10,189 bases of DNA, taken from contig JAATVP010000231.1 of assembly GCA_014523625.1 (NCBI GenBank), positions 1 through 10,189 on the forward strand, in the 5' to 3' direction. A program made the translations under genes and the position numbers. Shown piece after piece: positions 1-7,885 of this stretch. Position 1 is the first letter of the stretch. The number at the start of each line of letters is the position of its first letter. Below the pieces are notes generated by a model. That model was not told the origin of the DNA, did not search any database, and saw only the letters and a list, made by a program, of their open reading frames with translations. The stretch is from Nitrososphaerales archaeon TH5896 (lineage in GTDB: Archaea; Thermoproteota; Nitrososphaeria; Nitrososphaerales; Nitrososphaeraceae).

Positions 1-2456
1 TCATTTCCCAAGGAGTTAGCTTCTGCAGCACCTGAACGAGAAGTACAATCTTTATAGACAGGATGTGGGCATTCAGTCCTCAGGTATGTATCTCCTCCTT
101 CAAGAGGAATAGTTATAATATAGGTACATGCGCCCTCTCTATCATCAGGTCTATTATGAAAACCTCCATGCAATTTCATATCAATAGTATTAGAACCGCC
201 TCCCTTGAAATAGCCTGTCATTTCAATATTTGGCGGAACATCTTCTACTGACCATCTCATTGAATCAGATGGATTTGGATCGCTGAAGTCTGTGCGATAC
301 TGGCCTACTGTTTTATAGATTGTCTTTGCTCCATTTGGATCTAATCCTCCGCCGCCGCTTGAAACTGAGATGGATACGGTCGCCGGAGTTGTGCTCGTCG
401 CACCTTGGCTATCTTTTGCAACGTATGTGAAACTGTCCGAACCGGCGAACCCAGAAGTGGGTGTATAGACCACCATACTTTGGAGTGGTAGTGGGGATAA
501 CTGTCCATGAGATGGTGGGGTAACTAAGCTAAAGGTTAGGGGAGAATTTTCAGGATCTTGGCCACTAAGAGTAATCTCAACAGGTGTGTTGATGTTGGTC
601 GAAACAGATTTTGAATCTGCCGAGGGTCTTTGATTGGAGGATCCTACAGGTGTAATCACAAACCCTTCCATCCTTCCATCAGAATTAGGCACTACTGCAG
701 GATCGCTATTGTCCCTTAGAATTCCACTAAGGGATGTCCATGATGAGGACCAGATTGCACTGTTAGGTGGAGACTGTGTCTTGTAGTATAGAGCACTGTT
801 AGTACCTATGACAATGGCCTGTAACGTGCCATCAGTATTCCTTGCAGCGGCTGGTCCGGTATCTGCCTTTACTCCTCCGCCAAGAGATGTCCATGATGAA
901 GACCATGTGCTGCTGCCAGGAGAGGACTGTGCTTTGTAGTATACAGCGTTGTTAGTACCGATCACAAATACCTGCAGCCTACCATCACTGTTCGCAATAA
1001 CTGCAGGATCTGTGCCTCCTCTCAGGGTACCGCTCAGCGATGTCCATGATGAAGACCATGTGTTACTATTAGGTGAGGTCTGCGCTCGGTACTGTAATTG
1101 GTTATTTGTCCCCACTAAGAACACCTGCAGCCTACCATCGTGATTCCTTGCTACAGCTGGACTCGTATCTGCTTTTACTCCTCCACCTAGGGATGTCCAT
1201 GATGAGGACCAGGTTGCACTATTAGGTGACGTTTGAGTCTTGTAGTATACGACGTTATTTGTACCTACAACAAATACCTGCAGCCGACCATCATCGTTAG
1301 CCATCGCTATTGGATCCGTACTGGCCCTCAATCCACCACCAAGAGAGGTCCATGATGAAGACCAGATATTGCTGTTAGGGGAGGACTGTGTCTTGTAGTA
1401 TAGCTGACTGTTAGTACCTACAACAAATACCTGCAGCCTACCATCGTTATTCCTTGCTACAGCTGGACTCGTATCTGCTTTTACTCCTCCACCTAGGGAT
1501 GTCCATCCAGTCCAAGTGTTACTACCTGATGCAGTCTGGGTCTTATAAAATAACTGATTATTTGTACCTACAACAAACACCTGCAGCCTACCATCACTAT
1601 TCATGGCGACAGCCAAATCGGTATCAGGGGCTATATTACCACCAAGTGAAGAGTAAGACGACCATGTGCTGCTACCAGCTGAGGTTTGCCATTTGTGTAA
1701 GAGAATGCCAACTACATTGCCTCCGTTTCCACCTCCACCACCGCCACTACTAGCACTACCGAAGACAGAGATTTCCGTAATACTTGCCCAATCATTCTCA
1801 GTATTACCATTTACGGTAATTCGTACGTATCTTCCTTCAGTACCTCCTGGCAAGGTATATTTCTGAGCAGATGAACCAAGACTACTAGTATCAGAGAGTT
1901 TATTAGTGAAGGTAGTACCATCATTTGATACCGAGATAACAAAATTATTTTGCCGTACATCACCACGATACCAAACAATATCGACACTACATATACTCTG
2001 TATTGAGCCAAGGTCGAGTTGAATCCATGAACCTGTTCCCAGGTTGGACCATCTGGTATTAAGATTATTATCTAGAACGTTCGACGGAACATTCCCGTCG
2101 TTACCGTTCGCTATAGCTGATGAGACAGGAAGCTTGCTGCATGTTACTAGAGACTCAAGGGAGTTAGATCCCTGGCTGCCGCCTTGTAGGGTTGAAACAT
2201 CTTTAGTATCTTTTTCCAATTGTGGGTCTAAGTTAGCGGGATCAGTGCTCGTACCTCCTTCAATAGGAATCACCAAAGGGATATTTGCCCCTTCATAGTT
2301 AGCTTTGTAATCCTCATTCAAGTAAGGTGGTTCAAGAGCCATAACCTTATTTGAATATGAAACTACTACAAGTGAAGAAAGGATCAGCGAGATTAAAAGT
2401 ATTGAGCAGATATGCTTCTTTGGTACGATGCTATATCCGCGGAATAGATGGCTCAT
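1..2456 (-). CDS. Large secreted carbohydrate-binding/adhesin-like protein: discoidin, 7-bladed PLL-type propeller, cadherin-like and jelly-roll domains (C-terminus outside the window)
   Basis: I translated this reading frame by hand from the ATG at 2456 to base 1: 818 codons with no stop, so the 3' end is missing. Residues 17-36 are a hydrophobic signal-peptide core, with a likely cleavage site after VMA (residue 40). Residues 103-234 form a discoidin (F5/8 type C) domain: NVLDNNLNTRW, WIQLDLG, YVRITVNG and ITEISVFG are its hallmarks, and C106 and C156 probably form a disulfide. A glycine-rich hinge follows (237-247). Residues 255-600 are seven repeats of about 51 residues, each with DGRLQVFVVGTN, YYKTQ and W-SLGG, typical of DUF346/PLL lectin-like propellers. 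Residues 606-700 are a cadherin-like/Ig-like domain (PVEITLSGQDPENSPLTF, SFTYVAKDSQG). After a second Gly hinge, residues 708-818 begin a domain resembling the next gene upstream. Cell-surface glycan binding or adhesion is inferred. Confidence 0.88.
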   Translation of the reverse strand, partial: MSHLFRGYSIVPKKHICSILLISLILSSLVVVSYSNKVMALEPPYLNEDYKANYEGANIPLVIPIEGGTSTDPANLDPQLEKDTKDVSTLQGGSQGSNSLESLVTCSKLPVSSAIANGNDGNVPSNVLDNNLNTRWSNLGTGSWIQLDLGSIQSICSVDIVWYRGDVRQNNFVISVSNDGTTFTNKLSDTSSLGSSAQKYTLPGGTEGRYVRITVNGNTENDWASITEISVFGSASSGGGGGGNGGNVVGILLHKWQTSAGSSTWSSYSSLGGNIAPDTDLAVAMNSDGRLQVFVVGTNNQLFYKTQTASGSNTWTGWTSLGGGVKADTSPAVARNNDGRLQVFVVGTNSQLYYKTQSSPNSNIWSSSWTSLGGGLRASTDPIAMANDDGRLQVFVVGTNNVVYYKTQTSPNSATWSSSWTSLGGGVKADTSPAVARNHDGRLQVFLVGTNNQLQYRAQTSPNSNTWSSSWTSLSGTLRGGTDPAVIANSDGRLQVFVIGTNNAVYYKAQSSPGSSTWSSSWTSLGGGVKADTGPAAARNTDGTLQAIVIGTNSALYYKTQSPPNSAIWSSSWTSLSGILRDNSDPAVVPNSDGRMEGFVITPVGSSNQRPSADSKSVSTNINTPVEITLSGQDPENSPLTFSLVTPPSHGQLSPLPLQSMVVYTPTSGFAGSDSFTYVAKDSQGATSTTPATVSISVSSGGGGLDPNGAKTIYKTVGQYRTDFSDPNPSDSMRWSVEDVPPNIEMTGYFKGGGSNTIDMKLHGGFHNRPDDREGACTYIITIPLEGGDTYLRTECPHPVYKDCTSRSGAAEANSLGN
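650..1692 (-). repeat. Tandem coding repeat, ~153-bp unit, seven propeller blades
   Basis: Seven in-frame blade repeats lie inside the large secreted protein. The period is about 153 bp (51 residues; the first is 50). Each unit has an aspartate-box-like DGRLQVF strand and a W(T)SLGG turn. Units alternate between two types: blades 2, 4 and 6 read GVKADTSPAVARN-like, while blades 3, 5 and 7 read LRxxTDPAVxxN-like. Bases 1123-1200 and 1429-1506 match at 77 of 78 positions and lie exactly 306 bp (two blades) apart, which points to recent duplication of a blade pair. Because this is a translated repeat it is not a CRISPR array. Confidence 0.9.
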
Positions 2457-2821: not shown

Positions 2822-3796
2822 TCATTTATCAGGTAGTGGTGGCTGAATCTCCCTTATACTCAGGTCTCTAAAATCCCATACTATTCCATCAGATCTGAAA
2901 GATGCCACAGGTCCGGAATTTGTGATGATATGGTCTTTTGCGATACCACAATCCGCAGAATAGAACTCTTCATCCCATGAAGCCGCGAACCATCCGCCGT
3001 CATCAATTAGGTCTGTTACTTGTGACCAGGTATTATTATTCTCGTTATCTATATAAGATTCCATTTTAACCGCTGTATTATTTTCAATATTATACATAAT
3101 AACCTTCCATCCAATCCATCTGCCAATAAGTGGTTGACTTGTGGCTTGCATCGTCTCACTACTATCAGTATATCCTCCACTATGCCATATCTCTTTTTTC
3201 CAATTTGCAGTTCCATCTACTAATAACCTTCCCTTTAGGGATGTACCTTCGCATGGAGCTTCATCAGTGTGATGCCCACCCCTTGCATACCATTGTAGAC
3301 CAACTTCGTCCTCATCTTCTGATGCAGCTATAATACGGGCGTAGCCGGTAATTTCAACGTCTCTCCATTCCTCCTGCGAAGGTGGAGTAATTACCTCTAA
3401 TAAAATGTGGTATTTATCGTTAAATTGCTGAGAAATATTTATGCCTCCCAATCTCCAAGATCCATCTTGTTGCTTTTCTAGTTCAACATCTCCTAAAATA
3501 AACCAAGGATCTGTGTATGGATCATCCATATTCACATACCATTCTCTGCCTCCACTCTTTGTTTCATATATCTTTTTAACCCCAAATCGATCTAGTTGCC
3601 GTGCATTCTCAGAATCAACCTTACTACCGTTACCGATATCATCAGTGTTGGCACTGGTCGCCTTCAACCCTATATGGCGATCATAATTGTTTCCCTCAAC
3701 AATAATCAAGAATGATATTACTGCTACGAATGATATAACACAAGATATTGTATAGTTGTTACTTTTTATTGTACAGACAGCATTTGATATTCTCAT
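2822..3796 (-). CDS. Secreted or membrane-anchored jelly-roll (concanavalin-like) domain protein
   Basis: This 324-residue protein starts at an ATG at 3796. Residues 16-34 are a strongly hydrophobic segment (signal peptide or N-terminal anchor), with lysine and arginine before it. The mature part, from about residue 70, looks like one beta-rich jelly-roll domain: VKKIYETKSGG, MDDPYTD, DVEITGYARI, RGGHHTDEAPCEG, IGRWIGWKVIMYN, VKMESYIDNENN, and a closing strand VASFRSDGIVWDFRDLSIRE. That layout resembles LamG/polysaccharide-lyase-like sandwich folds, but I cannot point to a catalytic triad, so a binding role is as likely as an enzymatic one. C182 and C283 may pair. The first third of the domain resembles residues 708-818 of the downstream large secreted protein (IY-T, DP, E-TGY, GG-H, C). 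It sits 170 bp after wecB on the same strand, possibly in one transcript. No clear TATA box was found just upstream. Confidence 0.82.
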   Translation of the reverse strand: MRISNAVCTIKSNNYTISCVISFVAVISFLIIVEGNNYDRHIGLKATSANTDDIGNGSKVDSENARQLDRFGVKKIYETKSGGREWYVNMDDPYTDPWFILGDVELEKQQDGSWRLGGINISQQFNDKYHILLEVITPPSQEEWRDVEITGYARIIAASEDEDEVGLQWYARGGHHTDEAPCEGTSLKGRLLVDGTANWKKEIWHSGGYTDSSETMQATSQPLIGRWIGWKVIMYNIENNTAVKMESYIDNENNNTWSQVTDLIDDGGWFAASWDEEFYSADCGIAKDHIITNSGPVASFRSDGIVWDFRDLSIREIQPPLPDK

Positions 3797-3966: not shown

Positions 3967-5037
3967 CTACTCGATGATACTACTTATAACTTTATAGGCC
4001 CTGTTAGTGACATCTTCTCCGTATGGATTAACGCTTATTTTCACATTAAGCATTTCTCTAATCACTTCGTTTATGGAACATTGCTGTCCAGCACCATCAA
4101 GAGGATGATACAGTCTATTTGCCTTTAGAAGGATCGTTTCCTGTCTTTCAGTTGTATTATTTAGAGTAACACATGGCCTCTTAAGAATGATGGATTCTTC
4201 CTGTACCCCCCCAGAGTCAGTCAACACAATCATGGCATCCTTAAGTAGAGAAAGAAATTCGGAATAGCCCACTGCATCAATTACCCTGACGTTATCAGGA
4301 AGAGTTATCCCATACTTCTCCAAGCTACTCTTTGTCCTTGGATGGATTGGAAAAAGTATCTTGTGCTCTACGTTAGATAGAAATCTTGAAAGTATCTTTA
4401 ACATGTCCTCATTGTCAACAAGAGCTGGTCTATGCAGTGTCAAGAGAACATATTCTGCAGGAATATCAGATCTCCTTTTCTTGTCCTTTATTTCTTGATA
4501 AAGTTTCCTACATACATCGGAGACCAGGTTACCCGTAACAAAGATCCTTTCCTCTGGTACACCCTCAAATTTTAAGAATAATTTACTAAGCTCTGTAGGA
4601 ACAAGATAGTAGTCAGATAGCGCATCTACCTGTATTCTATTTCTTTCTTCTGGCTTTGAAAGATCAAAACACCTCAACCCAGCCTCAATGTGAAATAATC
4701 TGCATCCACAATCTTTAGCTGCCAGCGCTCCAGCCACCGTTGAATTAGTGTCCCCATAGACGAGAACGTGAGTAGGTTGGATCTGTTGTAACAATCCACG
4801 AATATTTTCTCTCAATACCAGAATATCTGAAGTGTTAGATCTTAGATCATAATCGAACGTGATATTTAGCTCGTCAGTGAAAATATCCTTCATGTTAGCC
4901 GAAAAATGTTGCCCTGTATAGACAAAATTATTTCTGTAAGTTTTATTAAGAGACTTGACCAATTGAGATACTTTTATTATTTCTGGTCTATTCCCTGCAA
5001 TTGTGATTAGATGCACTTCCTCTACTCTGTTATTCAA
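3967..5037 (-). CDS. wecB: Non-hydrolysing UDP-N-acetylglucosamine 2-epimerase
   Basis: At 356 residues this matches the usual length of the family, which interconverts UDP-GlcNAc and UDP-ManNAc in the cytoplasm for surface polysaccharide or glycan synthesis. Family motifs appear in order: GNRPEIIK (15-22; R17 is the conserved arginine), TGQH (41-44), GDTNS (95-99; D96), HIEAGLR (116-122; E118), PEERNR (129-134; E131), VTGN (167-170), TLHR (200-203; H202), TDSGGVQEES (273-282) and TTERQE (295-300). Two motifs deviate: the usual GTRPE is GNRPE, and the usual HRxEN is HRPAL. The start is a TTG at 5037; no ATG, GTG or other TTG occurs between it and the upstream in-frame stop. The gene is divergent from the deacetylase gene and upstream of two secreted-protein genes on the same strand, which fits a surface-glycan role. 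A related NDP-sugar epimerase specificity is possible. Confidence 0.93.
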   Translation of the reverse strand: MNNRVEEVHLITIAGNRPEIIKVSQLVKSLNKTYRNNFVYTGQHFSANMKDIFTDELNITFDYDLRSNTSDILVLRENIRGLLQQIQPTHVLVYGDTNSTVAGALAAKDCGCRLFHIEAGLRCFDLSKPEERNRIQVDALSDYYLVPTELSKLFLKFEGVPEERIFVTGNLVSDVCRKLYQEIKDKKRRSDIPAEYVLLTLHRPALVDNEDMLKILSRFLSNVEHKILFPIHPRTKSSLEKYGITLPDNVRVIDAVGYSEFLSLLKDAMIVLTDSGGVQEESIILKRPCVTLNNTTERQETILLKANRLYHPLDGAGQQCSINEVIREMLNVKISVNPYGEDVTNRAYKVISSIIE

Positions 5038-5353: not shown

Positions 5354-6151
5354 TTGAAAATTACTGTCGTGATAATTCTAGCTGTAGGATCTCATCCGGA
5401 TGATATTGAATTGGGATGCGGCGGCTTAATCTTACAGGCAGTTAGAAACGGACATGATGTCTATATGTATACCTTAACACGTGGTGAGGCATCGGGTGAG
5501 CCTTACAGTAGGATTAATGAAGAAGCTCAATCTGCTAGAGTCATAGGAGCAAGAAAACTGTTGATTGATAGTTTTCAAGATACTCATCTCGCTGTAAACA
5601 GCGATTTGATAAATCATATTGAAAGAGTAATCGAAATGACCCAGGCGGATCTCGTATTGACGCACTCTTTATCTGATACTCATCACGACCATAGAGCAGC
5701 GGCTGCTGCCACCGTAGAAGCAGGTAGGTTTGCACACAACATACTCTCCTATGAAATCCCATTGTCCAGAGATTTCAAGCCACAGGTATTTCATGATATA
5801 AGCGACGTTATAGAAAAAAAGATCTCTTTGATAAGCTTATTTCAATCTCAGAAAGATAAAGTTTATCTCACTTCCACTGCAATAATGGGTCTTTCTGCCT
5901 ATAGAGCGCTGCAGAGTAGAATGAATTCTACGAAAGAAAATAAGGAAATTGAGAGCGTAAATCATGTCGAAGCATTTGAAGTGATGAAAATTTCACTTGA
6001 CAATAGTATGAAGCTAGCAAATACAACCACTATTGAACGCGATCATGAGCCTGTATCGAACCCTTTAACAGACGATATACAGGAGATCTTGCCTTCCTTA
6101 GAAATCGTGGATTCGACACCTGATCAAACAAGGATATTCAAACAGTATTAA
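5354..6151 (+). CDS. PIG-L/LmbE family zinc-dependent N-acetylglucosaminyl deacetylase (BshB-like)
   Basis: The 265-residue product carries the family zinc site: GSHPDDIELGCGG at 12-24 (H14, D16, D17) and SDTHHDHR at 107-114 (H113 probably completes the metal site). YRALQSR (183-189) and EAFEVMK (206-212) are typical of the C-terminal part. Residues 213-265 are a polar, probably disordered tail beyond the catalytic core. Family members remove an acetyl group from GlcNAc-linked substrates such as GlcNAc-malate (BshB), GlcNAc-inositol (MshB) or lipid-linked GlcNAc. The start is taken as the TTG at 5354, directly after an in-frame stop at 5348; a GTG at 5369 would also leave the motif intact. 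The BshC-like gene begins 15 bp after the stop, so the two almost certainly form an operon. This pairing favours a BshB-type role, but a polysaccharide deacetylase cannot be excluded. Confidence 0.9.
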   Translation: MKITVVIILAVGSHPDDIELGCGGLILQAVRNGHDVYMYTLTRGEASGEPYSRINEEAQSARVIGARKLLIDSFQDTHLAVNSDLINHIERVIEMTQADLVLTHSLSDTHHDHRAAAAATVEAGRFAHNILSYEIPLSRDFKPQVFHDISDVIEKKISLISLFQSQKDKVYLTSTAIMGLSAYRALQSRMNSTKENKEIESVNHVEAFEVMKISLDNSMKLANTTTIERDHEPVSNPLTDDIQEILPSLEIVDSTPDQTRIFKQY

Positions 6152-6166
6152 ATTAATATCTAGTGC

Positions 6167-7885
6167 ATGTACTTATTTCCTGCCCTTCAAAATGCAAAAG
6201 ATCCATTAATCATTGATTTCTTATCTAATATTCCCTGCACTTTGATGCAGGCATATGATAAGATGATGAATGATTTCGCCGATTATACTTTTGAAGGATA
6301 CATACTCAGCAATAGGCAGAAGATGTTAGAGCCTATTATTAAATTTCATAGAGAAGCAGATACCTTAACTAAGGCGGTTGATTGTGCCACTAACGATTTA
6401 AAGGATCCATCCACAAAGATTCTGGTTTCAACTCATCAACCTAACCTCTTTGCATATAGTGGAATATTTAAAAAGATTGTCTTACTTCAGACCTTAAAGG
6501 AGCTAATACTAAATCCTGAGCGCGGTCACAGTAAGTTAAAGATGATTAACTTATTTGTTATTATAGATCACGATTTTGCTGATGAAAACTGGATACGTGT
6601 TGCTCAGCTACCTAGTATCAAACACAATAATGGAATCATGCAGCTAAGGCTGCCTGTAGATAAATCTAAGCGTTGGCAAATGGTCTGCAAGATGCCACTT
6701 CCTAATAGATCGATCTTGGAAAATTGGAGAATCCAATTATTCTCATGGATAAAAAAGAGTTTCATATTCGAGCCATATATCTCGACAGCATTCGATCTGC
6801 AGAACATGAGATCAACTTTAATGTCTAATCTAGAATCTCTTTGGAAGATAGTTGAAGAATCATACTCAATAGCGAATACGTATTCTGACTTTAATTCCTT
6901 TTTCATGTCCAAAATTGTAAACAGGCTCTGGCAGTATGATACTTTGTTCATTAGGTTAACTGATCTCTCCCAAGTGTTCGTAAAAGGTTATGCCAATCTG
7001 CTCAGAAATTACGATAGCTATTCGAAAACACTTAGAGAGGCCGATCAAGTTTTCATGAAAAGGGGTATTCCTAGTGGCGTTAGTAACAGCTCATATCTTA
7101 ATAGCCCACTCTGGCTTCATTGCAAATGCGGAAGCAAATCCGCCACAAAGATTTCAAATAAACGAATCAGAAGCTATGGCGCGCACCAAGAAGTTTTCGT
7201 ATTGGAAGGAGACTGCCTGGGATGCAAGAAGCATCTCATAGCAGAATTAGTCGTAGATGAAGGAGGAGGAATAAATAGTCCCGATGCGCAAGTAGTAAGT
7301 AACCTCTCACCTAGATCTATTCCAATCGTTCTTTTGCTTTCTACCGAACTGGGCATTTCGACATATGTATCAGGAAGGGATGGAATGCGATATGTACTAT
7401 TTGGTAACCGATTGTTCAAGCAATTCTCGCAAGGAAATATCCCTCTGTTCATAGTCTGGCCTGCAAGGGATGTTTATTATGGCTTTGCGCAGTGTGATGC
7501 TCTTAGATCTGTGAAGCTAAAAAACTATGGCGAAATAGGAAGCTACATCCAGAAGCTAAAGGAGAAGGAAGAGCATTACCGATCACTTATAGCTCCTATG
7601 TTATGTGAAAGAAATCAGAGAATAAAGGAGAGTCGATCCGGGAAAGAGGATTATCTCTCAGTGTTGTTCTCTCATAAGAAGAACCAACGGAATATACGCG
7701 CTCAGATGAAGCTTGCAGATAAGGTCAAAAATATATCGAGCCTGAGACCGTGTATAATAGATTACGCTATCAATTTTGGACTACAGGACACAGAGTTACA
7801 ATGGCGACAAAATCTCTTGTCCAGCTCGGACCTAACCTGTCAAAATGAATTGTCACCTAAATTTGCCTATATGACCTTGACATAA
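6167..7885 (+). CDS. BshC-like protein (putative bacillithiol-type cysteine-adding enzyme) with inserted zinc-ribbon
   Basis: In the BshC family the enzyme joins cysteine to a deacetylated GlcN-malate as the last step of bacillithiol synthesis. The length, 572 residues, is slightly above that of bacterial BshC. Matching landmarks are STHQPNLFAYSGIFKK (88-103; compare TGQQ-GLFTGPLYTIYK in BshC), VIIDHDFADENW (131-142; compare the EDHDFEEV region), LGISTYVSGRDGMRYV (395-410; compare AYVGGPGEIAY) followed by IPLFIVWPARD (425-435), and a charged helical segment (455-525) like the family's coiled coil. An insertion carries C319, C321, C350 and C353 (CKCG and CLGC), a likely zinc-ribbon that I do not recall in bacterial BshC. 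The ATG at 6167 follows an in-frame TAG by 3 bases, fixing the start. The first motif also recalls WbqC-family proteins (HQPN), but those are much shorter. Family placement is from remembered motifs, and the substrate is inferred. Confidence 0.7.
   Translation: MYLFPALQNAKDPLIIDFLSNIPCTLMQAYDKMMNDFADYTFEGYILSNRQKMLEPIIKFHREADTLTKAVDCATNDLKDPSTKILVSTHQPNLFAYSGIFKKIVLLQTLKELILNPERGHSKLKMINLFVIIDHDFADENWIRVAQLPSIKHNNGIMQLRLPVDKSKRWQMVCKMPLPNRSILENWRIQLFSWIKKSFIFEPYISTAFDLQNMRSTLMSNLESLWKIVEESYSIANTYSDFNSFFMSKIVNRLWQYDTLFIRLTDLSQVFVKGYANLLRNYDSYSKTLREADQVFMKRGIPSGVSNSSYLNSPLWLHCKCGSKSATKISNKRIRSYGAHQEVFVLEGDCLGCKKHLIAELVVDEGGGINSPDAQVVSNLSPRSIPIVLLLSTELGISTYVSGRDGMRYVLFGNRLFKQFSQGNIPLFIVWPARDVYYGFAQCDALRSVKLKNYGEIGSYIQKLKEKEEHYRSLIAPMLCERNQRIKESRSGKEDYLSVLFSHKKNQRNIRAQMKLADKVKNISSLRPCIIDYAINFGLQDTELQWRQNLLSSSDLTCQNELSPKFAYMTLT

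Follow-up and report, generated by a model that had tools for sequence, protein, structure and literature searches.

What might a deacetylase gene and a BshC-like gene, standing side by side in an archaeon, be jointly used for? The question is raised by two genes on the + strand of the stretch presented above, hereafter the window, which is the whole of contig C188 (10,189 bases) of a 2.74-Mb, 92%-complete genome. The first gene (5354..6151) encodes a PIG-L (BshB-like) zinc deacetylase of 265 residues as listed, and the second (6167..7885) a BshC-like protein of 572 residues with a predicted class I aminoacyl-tRNA synthetase-like fold. Their coordinates, common strand and separation of 15 bp are as given in a preliminary description made from the sequence, and its view of the host as a probable archaeon is supported; that the host oxidizes ammonia is a fair inference. 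That description considered the pair to imply a bacillithiol-like thiol, with modification of a surface amino sugar as the alternative, and it is the alternative that fits better. The deacetylase could well free the amine on a sugar precursor for the BshC-like ligase to N-acylate, probably with an amino acid, the presumed product being destined for surface polysaccharide.

Membership of the first protein in PF02585 is clear, with 83.9 bits (E 1.7e-23) where the cut-off is 28.2, and its nearest sequence in the PDB is an N-acetylglucosamine (GlcNAc)-malate deacetylase (6p2t, E 1.4e-13). Though in these respects, and in its intact motifs, it is like the BshB1/PIG-L deacetylases, it differs from them in reaching neither the BshB1 nor the BshB2 equivalog cut-off in an NCBIfam search (94.8 bits against 182.5 for the BshB1 model, TIGR04001). 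The zinc site that had been described as intact is so on alignment: HPDD (residues 14-17, 5393..5404), which from the family we take to be part of that site, and H110, D112 and H113 of HHDH (residues 110-113, 5681..5692) are invariant in 12 of 12 aligned PIG-L sequences. Translation may well begin at the in-frame GTG at 5369 rather than at the TTG at 5354, as the N-terminus that results resembles those of the nearest homologues.

On its own the second protein is harder to place. As a single open reading frame (ORF) it stays under the PF10079 cut-off of 27 (15.9 bits, E 0.0088), matches no NCBIfam family, TIGR03998 included, and in single-sequence searches retrieves no BshC from the PDB (phmmer) and nothing from genome_contigs or plasmids. 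Alignment-based searches succeeded where these were too weak. Among 37 aligned members of the archaeal BshC-like family, 29 have a PF10079 match at E<=1, the strongest at 9.2e-12, two relatives exceed its cut-off (L077 with 45.4 bits and L081 with 31.7), and TIGR03998 matches at E<=0.1 come from 18, the strongest at 9.4e-9. The best match of the family profile among PDB sequences is a BshC, 4wbd, at E 2.9e-4, a value made up of weak collinear pieces, the best single one having an independent E of 0.065. Comparison by hhalign with bacterial BshC, represented by three annotated proteins (L129-L131), gives 97.0% (E 8.6e-11) over 319 columns, and the signal is present in separate subsets, with 95.3% for the nine non-Nitrososphaerales members alone and 90.4% for the other 28 alone. 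Chance similarity was considered and is ruled out by controls, in which no value exceeded 1.2% for eight unrelated families or 0.74% for reversed profiles. The protein is a remote BshC homologue, so that the preliminary description was right on this, although the assignment is not secure from the single sequence and becomes so for its family. (One of the three reference proteins, L129, is from an 807-kb Bacillus velezensis record, NZ_CP083716.1, that is labelled a plasmid; since it carries bshC, gerR, mraZ and rsmH it may be a piece of chromosome.)

The AlphaFold model of the protein (pLDDT 89.9, pTM 0.91) has BshC 4wbd as its top Foldseek match (E 1.3e-17, TM-scores 0.59/0.62, root-mean-square deviation 7.3), so that structure prediction, which had been proposed as a check, bears out the assignment. 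Class I LysRS 1irx (E 1.3e-8) and GluRS (9.9e-4) come after it, with CysRS, MetRS and MshC at E above 0.001 (0.014 for MshC 3c8z). While the predicted fold class is shared with MshC and the class I synthetases (LysRS, GluRS and CysRS), TM-scores to these are 0.2-0.4 as against 0.6 to BshC. In our reading of the model, the order of strands and helices would fit a synthetase-like core split by a helical region and a cysteine insert, and followed by two long helices. The insert, C319xC321GSK...C350xxC353 (7121..7225), appears zinc-ribbon-like; its four cysteines are invariant in the 37 sequences and the four-cysteine pattern is not present in 3 BshC or in 19 sequences of WbqC, a smaller protein dealt with below.

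In all, 22 columns are invariant across the 37 sequences. With regard to the landmarks by which the protein had been linked to BshC, DHDF (residues 134-137, 6566..6577) is exactly as described, both here and in 29 of 37 members, the DHD being in 3/3 BshC; together with the profile match, the predicted fold and the PIG-L partner it is what the family shares with BshC. The other two landmarks are slightly different from what was described. The supposed TGQQ-GLF-like sequence is THQPNLF, its HQPNLF (H90-F95, 6434..6451) being present in 37/37 members in place of BshC GQQxG, and the supposed YVGGPGE-like sequence is YVSGRDG (residues 400-406, 7364..7384), which alignments and motif patterns put in place of BshC GPGE and of WbqC YxSGxGG. 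By simple pattern matches, in which variants are undercounted, neither GQQxG nor GPGE is in any of the 37 members, whereas GPGE is in 3/3 BshC and QQxG[LF] in 2/3. These substitutions and the four-cysteine insert set the archaeal family apart from BshC, as does, for the window protein, the lack of a BshA partner over its cut-off (see below).

How widespread is such a protein? Matches at E<=0.001 are found in 33 of 101 genomes searched, that of the window included, with one carrier (G052) having a short fragment match and two genomes (G000 and G015) having two matches each; in the window's own genome there are two. A phylum-wide sample gave 12 matching genomes of 398, three of the matches being short and at least two of these being WbqC proteins, from which it follows that the protein is rare outside the host's own family. 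Two exact motif patterns recovered 41 loci from genome_contigs, a set that is incomplete because exact patterns were used. Most have Nitrososphaeraceae or Nitrososphaerales titles, and the remainder are titled Bathyarchaeota, Methanomethylicus, Hadesarchaea, Thermoplasmata, Euryarchaeota, Methanomicrobia or Aenigmatarchaeota; no member of the family was found in viral_contigs. In a tree from which five BshC-like ORFs of under 480 residues were left out, the window protein is within a clade of 31 rows (100/100), in which it is on a long branch and in no starred subset, the program warning of long branches.

That the BshB-like and BshC-like genes constitute one functionally coupled unit, as the preliminary description had it, is borne out by comparison, since 33 of the 45 BshC-like loci have a PIG-L gene on their stretch. 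In 12 of these (the window counted) it is the immediate same-strand neighbour, as it almost is in L066 with its short BshC-like ORF; in 17 it is two genes off on the opposite strand, and in 3 it is three genes off. The coupling extends to Bathyarchaeota, Methanomethylicus, Hadarchaeota, Thermoplasmata, Aenigmatarchaeota and Euryarchaeota bins. Among the 12 loci without PIG-L, eight (L036, L055, L056, L058, L060, L063, L076 and L086) have contigs that stop within the locus or shortly past it, though L038, L062, L064 and L088 have room for it. Strong PIG-L matches (E<1e-60) are in 28 of the 33 carrier genomes (29 counting the G052 fragment) versus 18 of 68 non-carriers, figures in which kinship is not corrected for; the greater commonness of PIG-L is as expected if the ligase needs the deacetylase and not vice versa. 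The PIG-L partners of the BshC-like clade to which the window protein belongs form two clades (97/97, also holding L082 and L083, and 97/96), with deep placements in the PIG-L trees carrying the program's long-branch warning. A PIG-L-like protein lacking HPDD is encoded three genes from the BshC-like gene in L057 (1421-2125, +).

The pair would on this basis carry out two consecutive cytosolic steps of amino-sugar modification. PIG-L would remove the N-acetyl group of a sugar, presumably of GlcNAc type, on a precursor, and the amine thus freed would be joined by the BshC-like enzyme to a carboxylic acid, in all likelihood an amino acid, with donor acid, acceptor and energy source all being suggested by analogy to BshC, which is described as adding cysteine to glucosamine (GlcN)-malate (PMC7278568, PMC6282198). 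The N-acylated amino sugar might then enter a cell-surface polysaccharide, the pointer to which comes from neighbouring genes. In some Nitrososphaeraceae this polymer would be the work of a Pel-like synthase. In the genome of the window, in which no PelF orthologue could be identified, WecB may supply the sugar, and in related genomes the smaller WbqC would perform the second step in the same locus.

Two types of neighbourhood are pertinent. In type A (6/45 loci) winged-helix genes accompany an adjacent PIG-L and BshC-like gene, and SNAP/TPR-like, PelF-like GT4 (DUF3492), epimerase and PelG-like genes form a divergent group, the epimerase being of the kind named PelX. In type B, genes for a PHP protein, the BshC-like protein and ATP-grasp proteins are accompanied by a convergent PIG-L gene and, on the other side, a second ATP-grasp gene, with a UDP-sugar dehydrogenase gene in some. 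Elsewhere, DegT aminotransferases are encoded in L081-L083, and N-termini alone point to GlmS in L082 and L083 as well as to a glycan cluster in L087. Pel itself is described as a partially deacetylated N-acetylgalactosamine (GalNAc) polymer (PMC12022489). The likeness to the Pel system (PelF, PelG, PelX) lies in the adjacency of PelF- and PelG-family proteins and an epimerase to the pair in six related loci; the differences are that such genes are not in the window and that here the deacetylase is PIG-L, paired with a ligase-like protein.

Also pertinent is what can occupy the place of the BshC-like gene. Two genomes of the host's order gave short matches to the BshC-like profile that turned out to be WbqC (PF08889), and an order-wide sample gave 24 WbqC matches in 23 of 201 genomes. 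With a 54-position fragment from G029 left out, there were 23 stretches, in 17 of which PIG-L is also present. In five of the 23 (L146, L150, L155, L157 and L162) WbqC is in the BshC-like slot of a type A, i.e. Pel-like, locus, together with PelG-like and ATP-grasp genes and some of the PelF, epimerase, SNAP and winged-helix genes, and in L142 it is between ATP-grasp and PHP genes as in type B. Moreover, 13 of the 17 WbqC-partnered PIG-L proteins share a clade (100/98, 20 rows) with that of the window and six other BshC-partnered ones, the other four being outside it, in a tree from which the two PIG-L rows of L057 were left out. Because of this replacement, and of the company of Pel-like genes, WecB, UDP-sugar dehydrogenase and DegT, with the F5/8 type C proteins counted on the same side, a role in glycan modification is preferred to one in thiol synthesis, and it ranks ahead both of a thiol and of any other soluble product.

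Some gene groups met with in these comparisons are of interest in their own right. PelF-, epimerase- and PelG-like exopolysaccharide genes are beside PIG-L and either BshC-like or WbqC genes in ammonia-oxidizing archaea (L037, L050, L052, L061, L066 and L079; L146, L155, L157 and L162). In L066, otherwise a type A locus, the BshC-like ORF (10363-11568, +) is shortened N-terminally to 402 residues, by either a broken gene or a sequence error. The group of PHP, BshC-like and ATP-grasp genes with a second ATP-grasp gene beyond, itself uncharacterized, is found in L036, the second BshC-like copy of the window's own genome, on a short contig (C137) without PIG-L, and e.g. in L044, L049, L067 and L074.

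Were the pair instead to provide the last two steps in making a low-molecular-weight thiol resembling bacillithiol or mycothiol, some other glycosyltransferase would have to stand in for BshA and the acceptor would not be malate. The nearest characterized relatives of both proteins are, after all, bacillithiol enzymes, and the adjacent deacetylase-ligase pairs in several archaeal phyla look like a self-contained unit. The own genome does encode GT4-type proteins that are weakly BshA-like, but the best scores 79.2 bits against the TIGR03999 cut-off of 273.7, so that BshA, first remarked as absent from the window, has no match over its cut-off in this 92%-complete genome either. YpdA fares similarly (49.5 bits at best against 339.9), and bacilliredoxin (PF06491) is without a match. 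YpdA and bacilliredoxin are partners of bacillithiol, though not strictly required. A central redox thiol would also be expected to have a steadier distribution than 33 of 101 relatives and 12 of 398 genomes phylum-wide, and in related genomes it is WbqC that stands, where the BshC-like gene would be, next to PIG-L of this clade and to Pel-like genes. The implication of a bacillithiol-like thiol is accordingly not sustained, and thiol synthesis is considered improbable. According to a 2020 review (PMC7278568), BshA and BshC have 39 archaeal matches apiece, most of them from Asgard, and bacillithiol has not been detected in archaea.

On a par with it, and so likewise improbable, is the production of some other soluble metabolite or modified nucleotide sugar, e.g. 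a small amide whose synthesis the ATP-grasp and PHP proteins encoded in type B loci would complete. These loci do join the BshC-like gene to PHP and two ATP-grasp genes, and strong PHP matches (E<1e-40) are in 29 of 33 carriers versus 14 of 68 non-carriers. However, none of the type B neighbours is beside the pair in the window, and PHP is common without the ligase too. Very unlikely is a BshC-like protein that, with HQPNLF replacing the GQQxG of BshC, has given up ligation for binding or regulation and merely inherited its link to PIG-L, given the 22 invariant columns in 37 distant sequences, a linkage seen in 33 of 45 loci and the joining of two separate PIG-L clades to one BshC-like clade.

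Returning to the preferred reading of the pair as modifiers of a surface glycan, the replacement by WbqC permits a broader and rather doubtful proposal, namely that BshC, the archaeal family and WbqC belong to one superfamily of amino-sugar N-acyl (aminoacyl) ligases of synthetase-like fold that act behind PIG-L, with the archaeal family as the bridge. By hhalign the BshC-like family is homologous at profile level to WbqC, with 95.9% for a set of 19 sequences, 96.0% for one of 16 (A4, from the 22 loci L105-L126, three of which failed the ORF filter for the 19-sequence set) and 96.3% over 176 columns for 22 viral-contig sequences (A5, from 22 of 63 viral loci). What WbqC and the family have in common is HQP close to the N-terminus, YxSGxGG, D..N.G close to the C-terminus, a PIG-L neighbour and locus slots. 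WbqC differs in being about 240 residues long, with no counterpart of the helical insert, the cysteine insert or the long helices. The window protein has no match to PF08889 at E<=1, and the sole relative with one, L077, is under the cut-off (13.5 against 21.3 bits). As regards mutual exclusion of the two genes, WbqC is in 3 of 101 relatives, one of which (G022) has a BshC-like gene as well. WbqC, described as functionally uncharacterized, is reported from O-antigen clusters (PMC5532660), and it has been noted in sponge Thaumarchaeota (PMC7848895). Relatives of WbqC are also present in 63 loci (L163-L225) of IMG/VR viral contigs. A search of PDB sequences with the WbqC profile gave ferritin chimeras at best (E 0.02), a match judged to be due to chance.

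Several points weigh against the surface-glycan reading or its extension to WbqC. A search of the own genome for PelF gave 29% over 198 residues at best and no orthologue, and it is in the window alone, among the sources compared, that WecB adjoins the pair, which leaves the window itself with a thin link to glycans. PIG-L and PHP (strong matches) occur without the ligase in 18 and 14, respectively, of the 68 non-carriers, and the pair might have nothing to do with its type B and Pel-like neighbours. Direct comparison of BshC with WbqC by hhalign gives no signal (0.1%), which is why the link between them depends on the archaeal family. Contrary to expectation, the AlphaFold model of WbqC (pLDDT 95.4) has no Foldseek match at E<=0.001, its best being CTP:glycerol-3-phosphate cytidylyltransferase (2b7l, E 0.015), and BshC 4wbd is not among the 50 matches listed.

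Were the superfamily real, WbqC, an orphan O-antigen protein, would gain a biochemical function, and bacillithiol synthesis would be a specialized offshoot of polysaccharide modification. Of wider interest are the presence in several archaeal phyla of a BshC-related deacetylase-ligase module, and the caution that such a gene pair should not be read as bacillithiol synthesis. For WbqC the proposal of function is a testable one, and in ammonia-oxidizing archaea attention is drawn to a locus of Pel-like type and to a surface glycan that may be aminoacylated. Judged by titles and the beginnings of abstracts, none of the papers listed by the literature searches describes the archaeal BshC-like family or a BshC-WbqC link.

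As to the remainder of the window, the divergent neighbour of the pair (3967..5037, -) encodes a UDP-GlcNAc 2-epimerase of WecB type (TIGR00236, 241.7 bits against a cut-off of 210.15). Further off are genes for two secreted-looking proteins (3..2456 and 2822-3796, both -), the first of which runs off the contig as an 818-residue ORF with F5/8 type C (PF00754, E 1.1e-19) and Ig-like (PF17963, E 2.8e-14) domains, its secretion being judged from the N-terminus alone. An F5/8 type C domain is encoded beside the BshC-like loci L036 and L076 as well.

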